Of a stretch of DNA of 39,768 bases, positions 18,034-28,500 are shown piece by piece. Numbering within the stretch: the first letter of the stretch is position 1; every line of letters starts with the position of its first letter. The stretch is from Paenibacillus ihuae. Its GTDB lineage: Bacteria; Bacillota; Bacilli; Paenibacillales; Paenibacillaceae. A program made the position numbers and the translations under genes. Where the stretch lies: assembly GCF_001368795.1 (NCBI RefSeq), contig NZ_LN831198.1, positions 3,486,783 to 3,526,550 of the forward strand, in the 5' to 3' direction. The notes beneath the pieces are model-generated. The model worked only from the letters and a program-made list of their open reading frames with translations. It did not search any database and was not told where the DNA came from.

Positions 18034-18215
18034 ATATATTTTTTTAAAATCCCCTCGTTTCTGCTGCTTCTAAGATTAAACAACTATGCGATCTCCGGAT
18101 TGAAACAATTAAGTGTGGTTTTTTGGAGGGTATAAAGCTGCGGTGCACACAAGAGAGTTAGGAGAGCAGCATTACATATGCTGGATTTAAGGTGTATTTC
18201 CCCCAGCGGATCCAT

Positions 18216-18229
18216 TGCAAACGTTTGCA
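18216..18229. promoter_or_regulatory. LacI-family operator, copy 1
   Basis: TGCAAACGTTTGCA is a perfect 14-base palindrome with the central CG typical of LacI/GalR-family sites. It resembles operators of maltose regulators (MalR type) in Firmicutes. It lies about 290 bases upstream of the amylase. Confidence 0.75.
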
Positions 18230-18266
18230 CAAAAGACAATAGAATGGAATCACCAATTATGGTCAT

Positions 18267-18280
18267 TGCAAACGTTAGCA
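18267..18280. promoter_or_regulatory. LacI-family operator, copy 2
   Basis: TGCAAACGTTAGCA differs from copy 1 at one base and lies exactly 51 bp from it. Both copies are preceded by CAT. The spacing, close to five helical turns, would suit looping or cooperative binding. Confidence 0.7.
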
Positions 18281-18429
18281 AAGATGGCATGAACGATCCT
18301 GGCTCTATTATTAGCACTTAACCTGAACAATGTAAATAGTTGTAAAGTAGTATGCGTCCAGACGATCAGCCGGTGCAATTACGCAAATCTCCTCGCTAGG
18401 TGTTGCGGCACTAAGGCAAAAGAACTGAA

Positions 18430-21558: not shown

Positions 21559-22380
21559 TTATGGCTTTAATTGTGCCACAAATTCACGAATTTGCAACAG
21601 CCCTTCACTTCGTGTGGCTGGATTATCCAGCAGCGGAATAACATCCTCCACCTTACGGACTATAGCGCTGCCCACGACAACACCGTCGCAAATCTGAGCA
21701 AAGCGCGCGACCTGCTCACTGGTGGAAATCCCGAAGCCTACCGCTACCGGAAGGTCTGTCGCCCGGCGTACAGAAGCAATGAAATCATCGACACCGGTAT
21801 GAAAAGAAGATCTTTCTCCCGTTACACCCAGTGAAGAAACGCAATAAACAAAGCCGCTGGCTCCTGAAACAATCCGCTCAATCCGCTCGCTGGAGGTCGG
21901 TGCAACCAGCGGAATGAGGTTCACTCCAGCTTCACGGCTGCGCTTACGCATCTCCTCCGACTCTTCCACCGGCAGATCGGGGATAATCAGTCCGCTGATC
22001 TCATGAGTATCCAGCTCGGCAAAAAACGTATCCAATCCCATTTGCATTACCGGATTATAATAAGTGAACAGAATAAACGGCAGCTTACTGCCCGCCTGGC
22101 GGGCTTTGAGTGCAGTCTCCATACAGGTGCGCAGATGAATATTGCCGCGCAGCGCTCTGGACGAAGCCCGCTGGATAACAGGTCCGTCGGCCAGCGGATC
22201 GGAATAAGGAACCCCGAGCTCCAGAATATCTGCACCAGCCGCTTCCAATTCGGCAATAATATCGAGCGTAGTGTCCAGATCGGGATCCCCTACCGTAAGA
22301 AAAGGAATCAAAGCTGCTTTTCCTTCGGCTTTAAGCTTCCGGAAGGTCACATCCATCCGGTTCGTCGTTTCTGTTGTCAT
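21559..22380 (-). CDS. trpA: Tryptophan synthase alpha subunit
   Basis: TrpA cleaves indole-3-glycerol phosphate to indole and glyceraldehyde 3-phosphate. The catalytic pair is visible in ILELGVPYSDPLADGP (Glu and Asp), and the phosphate-binding loop in GFGIST and GVVVGSAIV. From the ATG at 22380 it has 273 residues. The start overlaps the trpB stop as TGATG, so the two subunits are translationally coupled; a GTG one codon earlier is an alternative. It is the last trp gene before hisC. Confidence 0.97.
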   Translation of the reverse strand: MTTETTNRMDVTFRKLKAEGKAALIPFLTVGDPDLDTTLDIIAELEAAGADILELGVPYSDPLADGPVIQRASSRALRGNIHLRTCMETALKARQAGSKLPFILFTYYNPVMQMGLDTFFAELDTHEISGLIIPDLPVEESEEMRKRSREAGVNLIPLVAPTSSERIERIVSGASGFVYCVSSLGVTGERSSFHTGVDDFIASVRRATDLPVAVGFGISTSEQVARFAQICDGVVVGSAIVRKVEDVIPLLDNPATRSEGLLQIREFVAQLKP

Positions 22381-23576
22381 CACTTATCCGCCCCTTCCGT
22401 ATAAGCCATGATCGATTCCACATCTTTGTCTCCGCGTCCCGAGAGGCAGATGACGACAACGTCATCCTTAGTAAGATCTGGAGCAATCTTCGCTACATGC
22501 GCTATGGCATGAGCCGATTCCAGCGCTGGAATGATTCCCTCGGTGACACACAGCAGCTTAAGCGCATCCAGAGCTTCTGCGTCGGTAATAGGAACATACT
22601 TGGCACGTTCAATATCTTTGAGATAGGAATGCTCCGGTCCGACTCCCGGATAGTCCAGACCGGCGGAAATGGAGTGAGCCTCTGTAACCTGACCGTATTC
22701 ATCCTGCAGCAGATAGCTTAAAGACCCTTGGAATACACCCTGGCTGCCCTTGCTCATTGTTGCTGCATGAAACAGGGTATCAATTCCCTTCCCGGCTGCT
22801 TCTACGCCGATCATGCCCACCTGCTCATCCTCCATAAAAGGATAGAACATGCCGATGGCATTGCTGCCGCCGCCGACTGCCGCCACCAGAAGATCCGGCA
22901 GACGGCCTTCGGCCTCCAGGATCTGGCGGCGGGTCTCATCACCAATAATCCGCTGGAAATTGCGGACCATCATCGGGTACGGGTGAGGACCAACTGCTGA
23001 ACCCAAGATATAAAAGGTATCTTCCACATTGCTGACCCAGTAGCGGAGTGCTTCGTTACCTGCATCCTTAAGGGTCCGGGAACCGGACGTCACCGGAATC
23101 ACCTCGGCGCCAAGCAGCTTCATGCGGAAGACGTTAAGCGCCTGGCGGCGTGTATCCTCTTCACCCATGAACACTTTGCATTCCATACCCAGCAGTGCTG
23201 CCACCGTTGCTGTAGCCACCCCGTGCTGGCCGGCGCCTGTCTCGGCGATAACCTTGGTTTTGCCCATTCTTTTAGCTAAGATCCCCTGCCCAATAGCGTT
23301 GTTGATCTTGTGTGCTCCGGTATGATTAAGGTCCTCACGCTTCAGATAAATCTTGGCCTCCCCAAGCTGCTTGCTGAGCCGCTCAGCATAATACAGCGGG
23401 GTTTCACGTCCGGAATACTGTTTCAGTAAATAATCTATTTCTTCCTGAAAAGCCGGTTCTGCCGAATATTTCGCATAGGCTTCCTCCAGCTCAATCAGTG
23501 CATTCATTAAGGTTTCAGGAACGAAGCGGCCTCCGAAAGAACCAAAACGTCCGTACTTGTCCGGTACTTGTATCAT
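22380..23576 (-). CDS. trpB: Tryptophan synthase beta subunit
   Basis: TrpB condenses indole with serine to tryptophan using PLP. The cofactor lysine is in [10 protein letters not shown] near residues 82-91, and the phosphate-binding [10 protein letters not shown] motif lies near 232-241. The conserved start [15 protein letters not shown] identifies the TrpB1 type. At 398 residues it has the usual length. Its ATG overlaps the trpF stop by four bases (ATGA) and its stop overlaps trpA. Confidence 0.98.
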
Positions 23577-24253
23577 GATTGCTTCACCCTTTCCACGAAA
23601 AAAGTCATTTTATTGAGATCCTTGATCCCGCCACTTTCCACGCCGCTGGAGACATCTACGCCATCAGGTCTGTAGACCTCCAGCAGTTCACTCACATTGT
23701 CCGGATGAAGCCCACCTGCTACAAATAAAGGCAGTCCATGCGCTTCCGCAGCAGCTTGAATGACCGGAATCTGCCCCCAGTCAAAGGTGCGCCCCGAGCC
23801 TCCGCTTCCCTGCGGATCATAAGTGTCAAGCAGCAATGCATCAACAGAGCCGGCGTAGCTTGCCACAGTGCCGGGCCCATCGGGATCGCCAGCCTGACCC
23901 TTGCCTGCCACGGAGATGGCCTTCCAGACCTTAACCTGCGGAAAAGTAAGCTTGACCTCCCGGCAGAACGCTGCGCTCTCCTGTCCATGCAGCTGGATCA
24001 CATCCAGCTGCACAGTCGTAAGCAACTCCTTCAGCTCTTCCAGGCCGGGGTTGACGAATACCCCTGCTGCACCTGGAGACTTCCCGGCCTCCCATGCCGA
24101 CAGCTCAGCAACGAGCTCCGCTGCCTGTACAGGTGTTACCCTGCGCCGGCTGGGTGCAAACACAAATCCAATATAATCAAGCGGTAATCGCTTCATAGAT
24201 TTTAGCACTTCAACGTCCTGAAGTCCACAGATTTTTACTAGTGTATCAGCCAT
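23573..24253 (-). CDS. trpF: Phosphoribosylanthranilate isomerase
   Basis: TrpF performs the Amadori rearrangement of phosphoribosylanthranilate. Key motifs are VKICGLQ near residues 6-12 (catalytic cysteine), [33 protein letters not shown], and the phosphate site [10 protein letters not shown]. The ATG at 24253 overlaps the trpC stop by eight bases and gives 226 residues, the usual length or slightly longer. The frame extends three codons upstream but the ATG fits the family start. It is separate from trpC, unlike the fused E. coli enzyme. Confidence 0.96.
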
Positions 24254-25076
24254 GAAAAGCACGGTCCTTTCCGGCGGATACTGGTCCGAGCAGTTTATTC
24301 ACCGCCTCTTCGACGTTCTGCTGCCTCATCAGATATTCTCCCACCAGTACACCTGTGGTACCGGTCTGGCGCAAATATTTGATATCATCCGGTCCGGCAA
24401 TCCCGCTCTCGCTGATGACCGGAACTCCATCCGGCACCAGTGCCGCCAGCTCTGCTGTCGTTTCCAGTCTCGTCTCAAACGTGCGCAGATTGCGGTTATT
24501 GATACCTAGCAGCACGTGGGGCTGCTCTATTTTCCCTGTGCCGGCTACAAGCTCCAGTTCGCTGCGGTCATGGACCTCGATCAGTACATCCAGGCCAAGT
24601 GAAGCAGATAAATCTGTAAAAGCAGCTAACTGCCCGGCAGTTAGAATAGCCGCGATCAGCAGGACAGCATCCGCCCCCAATATACGGGCCTCATAAATCT
24701 GACGCTCGTCGATAATGAAATCCTTGCGCAGTAAAGGAAGGTTTACCGCTGCCCTAACCTGCTGCAAATACAAACCGCTGCCTTGAAAATAGTCTTTATC
24801 CGTTAGCACCGACAAGCAGTCGGCTCCGCCTGCTTCATACCCCTGTGCAATGGACACCGGATCAAAGTCCGCACGGATCAGCCCTTTGGAAGGTGAAGCC
24901 TTCTTCACCTCTGCGATAAGTCCGATCTCCCGGTTCCTCCTGCTTACAAGCGCCTCCCGGAAACCCTTTGTAGCCGGAAGCCCGGCGATTGTCTCTTCTG
25001 CTTCCTTCAAGGAAAAGGTTTTGCTTAAAGCTTCGACCTCTTTGATTTTGGTAGCGACAATTTTATCAAGATACAT
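24246..25076 (-). CDS. trpC: Indole-3-glycerol phosphate synthase
   Basis: TrpC closes the indole ring by decarboxylating carboxyphenylamino-deoxyribulose phosphate. Motifs seen are IAEVKKASPSKG (catalytic lysine), LSVLTDKDYFQG, LLRKDFIIDE, LLGINNRNL and ISESGI. The ATG at 25076 lies within the end of trpD, with AAGGAG seven bases upstream, giving 276 residues; it overlaps trpD by 11 bases. Confidence 0.97.
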   Translation of the reverse strand: MYLDKIVATKIKEVEALSKTFSLKEAEETIAGLPATKGFREALVSRRNREIGLIAEVKKASPSKGLIRADFDPVSIAQGYEAGGADCLSVLTDKDYFQGSGLYLQQVRAAVNLPLLRKDFIIDERQIYEARILGADAVLLIAAILTAGQLAAFTDLSASLGLDVLIEVHDRSELELVAGTGKIEQPHVLLGINNRNLRTFETRLETTAELAALVPDGVPVISESGIAGPDDIKYLRQTGTTGVLVGEYLMRQQNVEEAVNKLLGPVSAGKDRAFHG

Positions 25077-26106
25077 AATCAAGCTCCTTCGTCATGGCTT
25101 TTAGCTGTTCCAGCTTAAGCAGCGCACTGCCGGAATCGATCATACGGCGCGCCTCCTGGACACCTGCACTCAAGCTGTCCGCCAATCCGGCAACATAGAT
25201 GCAGGCACCGGCATTAGCCAGTACGATATCACGGTATGGGGTTAAGGCTCCCTCCAGCACTGCAGTGATGATTGCAGCGTTCTCAGCAGCATCACCGCCC
25301 AGCACATCCTCCAGCGGATGCCGCTGCAGGCCCAGGGCCTCAGGGGTAATTTCATAGGTTTTGACAATGCCGTCTTTCAGTTCCGATACCTGGGTAGGTG
25401 CCGAAATGCTGATTTCGTCAAGGCCGTCCAGGCTGCTGACAATCATTGCCCGCTTGGAGCCCAGCTCCTTCAGCACATTGGCCACAATTTCTGTCTTATC
25501 GCGGTCGTAGATGCCCATAAGCTGGCGGTCGGCTCCAGCCGGGTTGGTTAGTGGCCCCAGCATGTTGAACACTGTCCGGAATCCCAGCTCGCGGCGCGGC
25601 GCGGCAGCATATTTCATGGACGGATGATAGATCTGGGCAAAGAGGAAGCAGATGCCGATATGATCCAGGCATTGCCGGGCCTGATCTGCGTTCAAATGAA
25701 TGTTGACGCCCAGAGCTTCCAGCACATCCGCACTGCCGGCTCTGCCGGAGGCGGAACGGTTGCCGTGCTTAGCCACGCGCACGGAAGCCGCTGAAGAAAT
25801 AATGGCCGAGGCGGTCGAAATATTGAATTTATGAATGCCTGAACCTCCGGTACCGCAGGTATCCAGCAGACGGGTGCGCTCTGTGAGCACCGGTGTCCCG
25901 AATCCGCGCATCGCTTCCGCGAAGCCGGTGATTTCCTCGACGGTCTCCCCTTTGATCCGCAGTGCGGTCAACAGCGCACCGATTTGCGCTGGGGACGCCA
26001 CTCCTTCCATAATGGTCCCCATAATCTCACGGGCCTGGGTCCGGCTAAGATCTTTGCCCTCGATCAGCCCGGCAATTCCTGATTGTATCATTTGACTTGC
26101 ATCCAT
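25066..26106 (-). CDS. trpD: Anthranilate phosphoribosyltransferase
   Basis: TrpD transfers the phosphoribosyl group of PRPP to anthranilate. The 346-residue protein shows the PRPP-binding motif DTCGTGGSG, the KHGNRSASGRAGSADVLEAL segment and RRELGFRTVFNMLGPLTNP. A GGAGG site precedes the ATG. It is separated from trpE by 128 bases, unusually wide for this tightly packed operon, and that gap holds a set of NAG triplets (26204-26231). Confidence 0.97.
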   Translation of the reverse strand: MDASQMIQSGIAGLIEGKDLSRTQAREIMGTIMEGVASPAQIGALLTALRIKGETVEEITGFAEAMRGFGTPVLTERTRLLDTCGTGGSGIHKFNISTASAIISSAASVRVAKHGNRSASGRAGSADVLEALGVNIHLNADQARQCLDHIGICFLFAQIYHPSMKYAAAPRRELGFRTVFNMLGPLTNPAGADRQLMGIYDRDKTEIVANVLKELGSKRAMIVSSLDGLDEISISAPTQVSELKDGIVKTYEITPEALGLQRHPLEDVLGGDAAENAAIITAVLEGALTPYRDIVLANAGACIYVAGLADSLSAGVQEARRMIDSGSALLKLEQLKAMTKELDYVS

Positions 26107-26234: not shown

Positions 26235-27788
26235 TTAAGGCGTATATTCGTACATGTAATCCTGATTGATTACCTGTTTTTCTTTGATCTCTACCGGAAA
26301 CATGGCTTCCGCCATCCGGATGGCTTTGAGCATGCCCTTTGCTTTGTTAAGGGTCTCTTCATATTCCTTCTCCGGCACCGAGTCCCATACAATCCCTGCT
26401 CCAGCCTGCACATAGGCCCGGCCTTTACGGAAAATGATGGTGCGGATGGTGATACAGGAATCCATATTCCCGGAGAACCCGAGATACCCGATAGCTCCGG
26501 CGTAGGCGCCTCTGGCTTCACGCTCCAGCTCGGAAATGATCTCCATCGCCCGCAGCTTCGGTGCGCCTGAGACGGTACCGGCCGGCAGACAAGACAGGAA
26601 GGCATCGAAGAAATCCTTATTGTCGTCCAAGGTCCCCGACACATTTGAAACCATGTGCATGACATGTGAGTACTTCTCGATTTCCATAAAGGAGTCGCAT
26701 TTCACCGAGCCGAACTTGGAGACCCTGCCCAGATCGTTGCGGCCGAGGTCAACCAGCATCAGATGCTCCGCCCGCTCTTTTTCATCCTCCAGAAGTTCAG
26801 CCGCGAGGGCCCGGTCTTCTGCCTCATTCGCCCCCCGCGGTCTGGTTCCGGCGATCGGGCGGGTGGCCACGCGGCCACCGTCCACCTTCACCAGCGATTC
26901 CGGAGAGGTGCCGACGATGATCTCTTCATCCATTTTAAGATAATACATATACGGCGAAGGATTCAGCGTACGCAGCATCCGGTAGACATGCAGCGGAGAT
27001 ACTTCCGTCTCAATATGCAGGCGCTGCGACAGCACCACCTGAAAAATATCTCCGGCCCGGATATATTCCTTGGCCTGCTCCACATTGGAAATGTACTGTT
27101 CCTTAGTAAGGTTGGAATGAATCTCACCCAGCTCGATATCCTGGGGGATGCTGCGGCGGTTAACATTCTCCTTCGGCCCTTCCTTCTGTAGCTCCTCGGC
27201 GAAGTCCTCCAGCTCGCGGTTCAAAGCCTCATAGGCTGCGCGGATGTCGGAGTCTGTATCCCCGTCTTTGATGTGCAGATTGCCTACGAGCAGGATCTGC
27301 TGTTTCACATGATCGAAGACAATGATCCGGTCGCAGAACATGAAGCGTATATCATCCGTGCCGAGATCATCTACCGCATGCGGCGAGAGCTTCTCATAAT
27401 ATTGCAGCAGATCATATCCGAAGAATCCGATCGCACCGCCGGTAAACGGAGGCATCCCGTCCAGCTTTGGACTGCGGTAGGAGCGGAGCAGTGCTTTTAG
27501 CTCCTCGATCGGTTTGCCTGTCAGCCGCTTCTGCTCCCCGCCGACCTTCACGTGGATGACATTCTTTTTCCCGGATATCAGCAGAAACGGATCACTGCCG
27601 ATAAAAGAATACCGGGCCCATTGAATGCCGCCTTCTACGCTTTCCAGCAAAAACGCGTGGGATTCACCGGCAAACCGCTGAAACAGCCGGATCGGAGTCT
27701 CCATATCCGCAAGCAGCCGCTTCACTACCGGAATCAGGTTATATTCCCGCGACAGTGATACCACTTCTTCAACACTAGGATTAGTCAT
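26235..27788 (-). CDS. trpE: Anthranilate synthase component I
   Basis: TrpE converts chorismate to anthranilate with ammonia from the glutaminase subunit. At 517 residues it has family length. The tryptophan-binding LLES motif lies in the N-terminal half (AFLLESVEGG near residues 45-54). Chorismate-site motifs include VGTSPESLVKV, RPIAGTRPRGA, LPAGTVSGAPK and QAGAGIVWDS. The Shine-Dalgarno AAGGAGG is nine bases before the ATG. No trpG lies in the operon, as in B. subtilis, where the shared glutaminase sits with the folate genes. Expression is probably controlled by TRAP-dependent attenuation in the leader upstream. Confidence 0.97.
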   Translation of the reverse strand: MTNPSVEEVVSLSREYNLIPVVKRLLADMETPIRLFQRFAGESHAFLLESVEGGIQWARYSFIGSDPFLLISGKKNVIHVKVGGEQKRLTGKPIEELKALLRSYRSPKLDGMPPFTGGAIGFFGYDLLQYYEKLSPHAVDDLGTDDIRFMFCDRIIVFDHVKQQILLVGNLHIKDGDTDSDIRAAYEALNRELEDFAEELQKEGPKENVNRRSIPQDIELGEIHSNLTKEQYISNVEQAKEYIRAGDIFQVVLSQRLHIETEVSPLHVYRMLRTLNPSPYMYYLKMDEEIIVGTSPESLVKVDGGRVATRPIAGTRPRGANEAEDRALAAELLEDEKERAEHLMLVDLGRNDLGRVSKFGSVKCDSFMEIEKYSHVMHMVSNVSGTLDDNKDFFDAFLSCLPAGTVSGAPKLRAMEIISELEREARGAYAGAIGYLGFSGNMDSCITIRTIIFRKGRAYVQAGAGIVWDSVPEKEYEETLNKAKGMLKAIRMAEAMFPVEIKEKQVINQDYMYEYTP

Positions 27789-27835: not shown

Positions 27836-27858
27836 AAAAACCTCTACCGAAGTAGAGG
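27836..27858 (-). terminator. Leader terminator close to trpE
   Basis: The minus strand has a perfect seven-base-pair stem CCTCTAC/GTAGAGG with a TTCG tetraloop, followed by TTTTT. It lies 48 bases before the trpE ATG and can end transcripts that start at the trp promoter or come from aroH. It is a likely attenuator. Confidence 0.88.
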
Positions 27859-27972
27859 TTGTTGTAGGTAAGTACATGAAAAAGCGCTCAGGACCGGGAA
27901 TCATTCCAAACGATGCATAAACTGTCTGATTAAGGATATACGGGTAGCGTAAATAAACCGTTAATCCTATCC

Positions 27973-28008: not shown

Positions 28009-28021
28009 TTAACATCCTGCA

Positions 28022-28075
28022 CTCGTCTCAGCTATACTCAACTAGTCTAAACTCAACTCGGGCTTTACTCGGCTA
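28022..28075 (-). promoter_or_regulatory. TRAP-binding site in the trp leader (11 NAG triplets)
   Basis: In the minus-strand transcript eleven triplets follow one another over 54 bases: UAG, GAG, AAG, GAG, GAG, UAG, UAG, GAG, UAG, GAG, GAG. Nine spacers are two bases and one (after AAG) is three. This is the known pattern for the tryptophan-activated 11-subunit RNA-binding protein TRAP, whose gene mtrB is in the window. Ten triplets are the preferred GAG or UAG. The site begins almost at the predicted transcription start. Confidence 0.93.
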
Positions 28076-28080
28076 ATTAC

Positions 28081-28110
28081 ACTATACATGATGACGGTGT
28101 TCATTGACAA
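28081..28110 (-). promoter_or_regulatory. Sigma-A promoter of trpE
   Basis: Minus-strand TTGTCA (28110-28105) and TATAGT (28086-28081) are separated by 18 bases, with one mismatch each. The predicted start is near 28074, at the first TRAP triplet. It gives trp genes their own promoter inside the larger aro-trp unit. Confidence 0.75.
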
Positions 28111-28128: not shown

Positions 28129-28500
28129 TTACTTGCTCTGTGAGAGATCCGGACGAAGCCTCTGCGCCTCATTCAAATAGACATGGCGGATATCCCGCTG
28201 AGACTTATCCGTGTTGACCTGTACCATCAGCCGGATGCACATCGGCAGACCGCCTTTGACCGGAATCTCAACGGAGCACATCAGAGGCACCAAATCCCAG
28301 CCTTCAATTTCACGGATGGCCCGAGCCGGGAACGTAGCATCCAGATCACCTGTCACCGTAATCCATACACTGCAGATATCTTCGGCAATAACATCATTGC
28401 GCTCGACAATTTCCCGCAGCAGCACAACGGTTTCGCGCAAAATCTCATTTTCCTCGTTTTTGGTTACGGTAGTTGCACCGCGTATCCCCCGGTTCACCAT
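28129..28500 (-). CDS. aroH: Chorismate mutase, AroH class
   Basis: This monofunctional chorismate mutase of 123 residues rearranges chorismate to prephenate for phenylalanine and tyrosine. It is of the trimeric AroH type: MVNRGIRGATTVTKNEENEI at the start holds the substrate-binding arginine; DICSVWITVTGDLDATFPAR and the MCSVEIPV and IRLMVQVNTD segments are characteristic. It overlaps the end of aroB by seven bases. The stop lies just upstream of the trp promoter, the same arrangement as in B. subtilis. Confidence 0.97.
   Translation of the reverse strand: MVNRGIRGATTVTKNEENEILRETVVLLREIVERNDVIAEDICSVWITVTGDLDATFPARAIREIEGWDLVPLMCSVEIPVKGGLPMCIRLMVQVNTDKSQRDIRHVYLNEAQRLRPDLSQSK

Follow-up and report, generated by a model that had tools for sequence, protein, structure and literature searches.

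A predicted TRAP-controlled attenuator with a long-range antiterminator in the trpE leader of Paenibacillus

The trp operon of Paenibacillus ihuae is preceded by a leader in which a run of NAG triplets, placed at the predicted transcript start, is complementary to the RNA next to a distant terminator. We propose, with a probability of roughly three in four, that TRAP controls this leader as a transcription attenuator whose antiterminator is long-range, which would make it a variant of the Bacillus subtilis system. TRAP attenuation is a known kind of control; the long-range geometry is new, and it recurs throughout the genus and in those other members of the family that were sampled. The work started from a 39,768-nt stretch of P. 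ihuae DNA (here called the window) and extended to a genus sample of 61 genomes, the window's own included. Features of the window are collected in Table 1.

Table 1. Features of the window that bear on control of the trp operon
Feature	Position	Strand	Basis or remark
TRAP site, eleven NAG triplets	28022..28075	-	Triplet scan; run present in 61/61 genus leaders
Twelfth triplet, CAG	28017..28019	-	In register, 2 nt past the eleventh; also inside the long-range helix
-35 hexamer TTGTCA, predicted sigma-A promoter	28105..28110	-	Promoter pattern, 57/61 genus leaders
-10 hexamer TATAGT	28081..28086	-	Transcript start predicted at 28075/28074
Proposed antiterminator, 5' strand (triplets 4-12 and GAT)	28014..28059	-	RNAduplex; own-versus-swapped test and decoys
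Proposed antiterminator, 3' strand (pre-terminator segment and terminator 5' arm), CCTCTACT	27851..27895	-	RNAduplex; swap test
Attenuator/terminator hairpin, AACCTCTAC-TTCG-GTAGAGGTT then TTTCTGTATT	27839..27860	-	Hairpin scan; 61/61 genus leaders alike
trpE, first gene of the controlled operon	26235..27788	-	TIGR00564, E 3e-176, above cut-off
trpD	25066..26106	-	TIGR01245
trpC, trpF, trpB, trpA	21559..25082	-	Pfam IGPS, PRAI, PALP, Trp_syntA
aroH	28129..28500	-	Upstream neighbour of the leader
mtrB, TRAP protein, 82 aa	38294..38542	-	PF02081, E 9.7e-40; Lys15, Glu71, Ser72

Results

A conserved run of NAG triplets at the predicted start of the trpE transcript

The initial annotation had described exactly eleven NAG triplets, ten GAG or TAG and one AAG, in the trpE leader. 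For the segment that it named the count is exact: from 28075 to 28022 the triplets are TAG, GAG, AAG, GAG, GAG, TAG, TAG, GAG, TAG, GAG and GAG, with spacers of 2, 2, 3, 2, 2, 2, 2, 2, 2 and 2 nt, which is the pattern of about eleven NAG triplets with 2- to 3-nt spacers that marks a TRAP site. The run does not end there, however, as the following CAG, which the annotation missed, brings it to twelve consecutive triplets. First-order Markov simulations of the window (400, both strands) gave no run longer than 9, a length reached once. A stricter pattern of five (G/T)AG triplets with 2-nt spacers matched the genome at four overlapping positions here and at one other place, and the same pattern reversed gave no match in the genome.

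Matches to both TrpE and TRAP were found in all 61 genus genomes, and every genus leader carries a run, of 6 to 15 triplets. The longest strict run has at least 12 triplets in 33 leaders, 10 or 11 in 17 and 6 to 8 in 11; some of the short runs are longer ones interrupted by an odd spacer. Conservation of the run together with the TRAP gene supports the annotated TRAP target in the trpE leader, and we regard TRAP binding at this site, predicted from its sequence, as near certain; the binding would be expected to depend on tryptophan. The 80 named loci nearest in TrpE carry Paenibacillus titles with the exception of one "Bacillus sp.," the nearest being P. auburnensis at 99% identity.

The predicted promoter, with an 18-nt spacer between its hexamers, lies between aroH and trpE, and the first triplet starts 5 nt past the -10 box. 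The pattern TTGNNN, 16 to 19 nt, TATA[GT]T, 5 to 6 nt, NAG gave the genus count in Table 1; the gap from TATA[GT]T to the first triplet is exactly 5 nt in 53 of the 61 leaders and 6 nt in 2, with other arrangements in the remaining 6. The position of the site at the predicted transcript start, as first annotated, is thus kept in most of the genus, and a transcript start at the customary distance would fall on the T or A of the first triplet. Four leaders (L057, L060, L058 and L061, from genomes G042, G047, G019 and G013) have 47 to 125 nt between a -10-like hexamer and the first triplet. Directly before the site, the same four leaders carry a short inverted repeat (AGAT.GAGATCT..., by eye) that recalls the 5' stem-loop of B. 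subtilis.

A second stretch of NAG triplets, at 26231-26204 between trpE and trpD, was rejected as a TRAP site because it is part of a dispersed repeat that a minority of relatives share. This repeat (GAGC.GAGCAGAGAATGCTCC..., then AAAACT...AGTTTT) occupies the trpE-trpD gap at 26234-26107, is sometimes present in several copies, and mimics a short TRAP site. No TRAP site was seen at trpG in this genome.

The terminator lies far from the site throughout the genus

The terminator, AACCTCTACTTCGGTAGAGGTT with a U-rich tail, begins 161 nt from the eleventh triplet and 156 nt from the twelfth. Its 5' arm is CCTCTAC in 60 of the 61 genus leaders and CCTCTGT in the remaining one; across the family's genera the arm changes, by eye, from CUCUAC to CUCUGC or CUCCUGC. 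Counting from where the longest strict run stops, the terminator is 134 to 444 nt away (median, 164), and none of the 61 leaders has it within about 20 nt of the site, the spacing of the B. subtilis type. The initial annotation had remarked that the site is far from the terminator and that the geometry is unlike that of B. subtilis; both points hold and are conserved in the genus. The hairpin of the window is GC-poor, has an interrupted U tract and a folding energy of -12.3 kcal/mol, compared with -12.6 kcal/mol for the B. subtilis attenuator (PMC3913778). It is therefore no stronger than its B. subtilis counterpart, and we make no claim of a strong terminator.

The arrangement extends to the rest of the family, where TrpE and TRAP matches were present in all 59 sampled genomes (19 genera). 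From 54 genomes of other genera we took 40 leaders. All 40 have full or broken runs (strict runs of at least 7 triplets in 25, and of 4 to 6 in 15), and 39 have a terminator 77 to 405 nt farther on; the scan found none in the leader of G081. Outside the family, 40 TRAP-positive genomes were picked, 39 of which had a TrpE match, and 34 leaders were read. Thirteen of these lack a run of 6 triplets, and 5 more lack a terminator by a scan with a laxer stem threshold; among the 21 with a run of at least 6, the terminator found in 16 lies 4 to 223 nt away (median, about 32). At the level of the class, 210 of the 299 genomes sampled had TRAP.

The site and the segment before the terminator appear to have co-evolved

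Over most of its length the TRAP site can pair with the approximately 40 nt before the terminator and with the terminator 5' arm, a feature that went unnoticed in the initial annotation and that supplies a mechanism for the odd geometry. In the window's leader, the core of the helix is formed by TGTACTT (27876-27870) and GAGTATA (28039-28033), GAGUGCAGGAU pairs with GUCCU and GCGCUU blocks, and one GAG triplet pairs with CUC of the terminator 5' arm. By eye, the 40-nt segment is conserved within clades. One leader (L045, from G009) has about 440 nt between the TRAP site and the terminator, some 250 nt more than its near relatives G029 and G055, and both ends of its long-range helix are still able to pair, so that it amounts to a natural spacer-length experiment.

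Plain shuffles control poorly for such pairing, given a GA-rich site and a pyrimidine-rich partner; against shuffled partners the duplexes were mildly better (mean z, -1.5, in the 56 of 61 leaders whose terminators the search pattern caught, 5 being missed). We replaced these weak scores with a swap test, in which each site was duplexed with its own partner and with the partners of other species. The test combined the genus set with an overlapping set of 80 named leaders; 12 of these lacked a terminator fitting the CCTCT-type pattern and did not enter the pairing tests. Removal of identical site/partner pairs left 93 distinct ones, which were then thinned to 30 leaders at <0.82 similarity. In these 30 nonredundant leaders, own duplexes averaged -29.9 kcal/mol, versus -26.1 kcal/mol for swapped ones, a difference reached in 0 of 20,000 permutations, and again in 0 of 20,000 when the terminator arm was left out. 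Decoy partners gave no significant result, with the observed value reached in 17,037 (mid-leader), 1,837 (trpE codons) and 3,418 (post-terminator) of 20,000 permutations. In 39 leaders from 18 other genera, a version of the test run without decoys or a redundancy filter had 28 of 20,000 permutations reaching the observed sum.

Covariation is visible in individual motifs among the 93 distinct pairs, in motif classes picked after inspection of the alignment and in related leaders that are not independent events. Where the partner has CAGCTT, GAGCTG is present in the site in 16 of 16 pairs, as against 11 of 54 where the partner has ATACTT. The latter partner goes with GAGTAT in the site in 49 of 54 pairs; since 12 of the 16 sites with a CAGCTT partner contain GAGTAT as well, it is the weak, nondiagnostic half of the association. 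When about 24 windows were compared as partners of the site, the pre-terminator one paired best in 39 of the 61 genus leaders, and some other window did so in the remaining 22. The swap test and its decoys indicate that the complementarity between the site and the pre-terminator segment has co-evolved and that the complementarity of the decoys has not.

Predicted folding points to a kinetic choice

We compared predicted folds of free leaders with folds in which the triplets were masked to mimic bound TRAP. When the transcript ends at the terminator loop, with the 3' arm still to be made, the 5' arm is predicted to pair with the site at a mean probability of 0.79 (at least 0.5 in 60 of 61 leaders), and masking lowers this value to 0.12. 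The net gain from forming the terminator has a median of 6.4 kcal/mol in free leaders versus 12.6 kcal/mol in masked ones and is smaller when the leader is free in 60 of 61 cases; in the window's own leader masking shifts it only from 8.9 to 10.4 kcal/mol. Antitermination could not be read off the equilibrium folding of complete leaders, as the terminator wins in most of those that are free: its mean probability is 0.89, with values under 0.2 in just 3 of 61 leaders and a value of 1.00 in the window's leader. Because the terminator forms at equilibrium in most free leaders, the choice between the two structures must be kinetic, and the model needs a race.

A model of this kind would run as follows. 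Transcription would start on the first triplet. With tryptophan scarce, TRAP would be inactive, and as the polymerase nears the terminator, the purine-rich triplets would pair with the 40 pyrimidine-rich nt that directly precede it and also with the loop-side part of its 5' arm (CUC or CUCUAC against GAG or GUAGAG). This pairing would delay nucleation of the hairpin, and the polymerase would read through into trpEDCFBA; the antiterminator would have to form first and hold until the polymerase clears the U tract. With tryptophan plentiful, Trp-TRAP would wrap the triplets as they emerge, leaving the 5' arm free to form the terminator downstream. We consider it probable that the leader contains a functional antiterminator, with about the same confidence as in the attenuator as a whole.

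Other readings of the leader

The long-range complementarity might be incidental, with TRAP acting on the polymerase as in ordinary attenuation of the B. subtilis type. B. subtilis TRAP causes termination in vivo in spite of mutation or deletion of the attenuator, and the hairpin there is likewise GC-poor, with an interrupted U tract and an energy in the same class as the one described above (PMC3913778). In Paenibacillus, however, TRAP would sit 134 to 444 nt before the terminator, not roughly 16, and the outcome of the own-versus-swapped test, in which the complementarity stood apart from the decoys, argues against incidental pairing; we therefore find this reading unlikely. Still less likely is control of trpE translation by a refolding of the leader that hides the ribosome site, a route known for trpE in B. 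subtilis (PMC11255114; PMC12288461). Masking the triplets changed the predicted accessibility of the trpE Shine-Dalgarno sequence little, its mean unpaired probability going from 0.34 to 0.28 over the 61 leaders, with a drop of more than 0.2 in 10, a rise of more than 0.2 in none and no change in the window's leader. We set aside control of ribosome access on these grounds.

A leader peptide or a T-box, with TRAP in a secondary role, seems very improbable. An ATG does follow the last triplet, opening a 64-codon open reading frame (28015-27821) that runs through the terminator, but an ATG lies within 8 nt of the end of the run in just 17 of 61 genus leaders, and the frame has no Pfam or NCBIfam match at E 0.001. 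A search of the window for T-boxes and other Rfam elements gave 0 matches at the gathering threshold. The long-range attenuator thus remains our preferred reading, and the two sections that follow concern the protein that would operate it and a further candidate target.

TRAP and the size of its ring

The mtrB gene is the single TRAP match in the genome (13 contigs) and lies on the same strand as the leader, 10.2 kb upstream of the site, in agreement with the initial annotation's estimate of about 10 kb. An open reading frame at 18084-18317, considered as a candidate for mtrB, had no Pfam or NCBIfam match. The RNA-contact residues F32, E36, K37, D39, K56 and R58 (list taken from PMC3184956) are kept in the window's TRAP and in all 61 genus TRAPs. 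Residue 25 is Ser in the window's protein and Thr in the other 60. Anti-TRAP (rtpA, PF15777), which B. subtilis has, gave no match at E 0.001 in the 61 genus genomes, with a positive B. subtilis control.

Residue 15 is Lys in 50 genus TRAPs and Leu or Val in 11, and at position 72 every one of the 61 has Ser or Ala and none has Thr. The TRAP of B. halodurans, a 12-subunit ring, has Lys15, Asp71 and Thr72, and the authors of that study considered a 12-mer likely for Paenibacillus sp. as well (PMC3184956). The P. ihuae system resembles it in Lys15 and in having more than 11 triplets in the leader, and differs in carrying Glu-Ser instead of Asp-Thr at positions 71 and 72 and 12 triplets instead of 19 (PMC3184956). 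A strict run of at least 12 triplets is present in 33 of the 50 genomes with a Lys15 TRAP and in none of the 11 with Leu or Val at this position, an association that is suggestive and, as the two groups are clades, confounded by descent. A simple match of 11 or 12 triplets to ring size was rejected on the same ground; in addition, 17 Lys15 genomes have fewer triplets, and the twelfth triplet also takes part in the helix. The annotated correspondence of eleven triplets to an 11-fold ring is weakened accordingly, with a run of twelve, run lengths that vary in the genus and Lys15 in the protein. Strict runs of 15 (L034 and L142; G016 / Paenibacillus sp. NFR01), 13 (L031, G003) and 17 triplets (L247, G105) exceed both 11- and 12-subunit rings.

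A second TRAP-like site

The other genomic match to the five-triplet pattern lies outside the window, in a run that ends at the ATG of a 230-aa open reading frame (L124:1501-1542; G000:C1:1828234-1828275). The encoded protein has a weak methyltransferase match just below the Pfam cut-off, and the structure predicted for it (mean pLDDT, 86.6) is similar to SAM methyltransferases, at TM-scores of about 0.4 to 0.5. This methyltransferase-like gene was found in 43 of the 61 genus genomes, and 22 of the 30 loci inspected have 6 or more triplets in a strict run around its start codon, compared with 0.25% of shuffles (at least 5 triplets in 25 of 30). In B. subtilis, TRAP bound at the translation start keeps ribosomes off trpG, trpP and ycbK (PMC11255114). 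Judged by its triplets, the methyltransferase-like gene is a possible new TRAP target outside tryptophan synthesis. In 16 of the 30 loci an open reading frame resembling a LysR regulator (by eye) lies upstream of the gene, ending 28 to 47 nt before it in the six loci shown (L250-L255); in the window's genome the upstream frame is instead transposase-like (by eye), in a partly masked stretch.

Discussion

The remoteness of the ring from the terminator makes a direct action of TRAP on the polymerase unlikely and would give TRAP a longer time window. In B. subtilis, that time is given by polymerase pausing (PMC12288461). A broader version of the model, which we hold to be about an even bet, is that TRAP in the Paenibacillus family works purely as a remote RNA switch: by catching the first 60 nt as the polymerase releases them, it would settle termination 134 to 444 nt later by way of an antiterminator that is long-range and kinetic. 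The long spacer would take the place of the polymerase pausing seen in B. subtilis, there would be no direct action on the polymerase, and the regulon would include the methyltransferase-like gene. We found no description of a Paenibacillus trp leader in the literature searched (including PMC3766115 and PMC10681722; most subscription journals lay outside the search), and trpE did not come up in a term search of the main text of a P. riograndensis transcriptome study (PMC5670726). The layout bears on how ring size relates to triplet number and on the timing of long-range antiterminators.

The likeness to B. subtilis lies in the TRAP ring, and in 11 G/UAG triplets with 2- to 3-nt spacers in the trpE leader; it would extend to mutually exclusive antiterminator and terminator structures, with triplets in the antiterminator. 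The gene order, mtrB-aro-trp, is that of B. subtilis too. The geometry, by contrast, differs. In B. subtilis, the first three triplets fall within +32 to +52 and the last near +91, the antiterminator extends from +60 to +111, and the terminator, at +108 to +133, comes roughly 16 nt past the last triplet (PMC4027176). A leader of about 30 nt thus precedes the first triplet there, whereas in most of the Paenibacillus leaders none is predicted; the site stands at the predicted +1, the terminator is about 160 nt off, and the proposed antiterminator is a long-range one that takes in most of the site.

Long-distance refolding has a parallel within B. subtilis itself, where, in a system attributed to Du and Babitzke (1998), TRAP-mediated long-distance RNA refolding reportedly controls trpE translation. 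The two would share a TRAP-dependent rearrangement of distant leader RNA and differ in their output, which is access to the ribosome site in that system and would be the terminator in Paenibacillus, where the ribosome site is predicted to change little.

The B. subtilis attenuator is a weak intrinsic terminator, TRAP can drive termination without it, and arguments have been made for an RNA-refolding route as well as for direct action of TRAP on the polymerase (PMC3913778). With roughly 16 nt between the ring and the terminator in B. subtilis, the two routes cannot be told apart by distance there. In Paenibacillus the site is 134 to 444 nt away, a spacing kept across the genus, sampled relatives in the family share the layout, and the RNA route can therefore be tested on its own.
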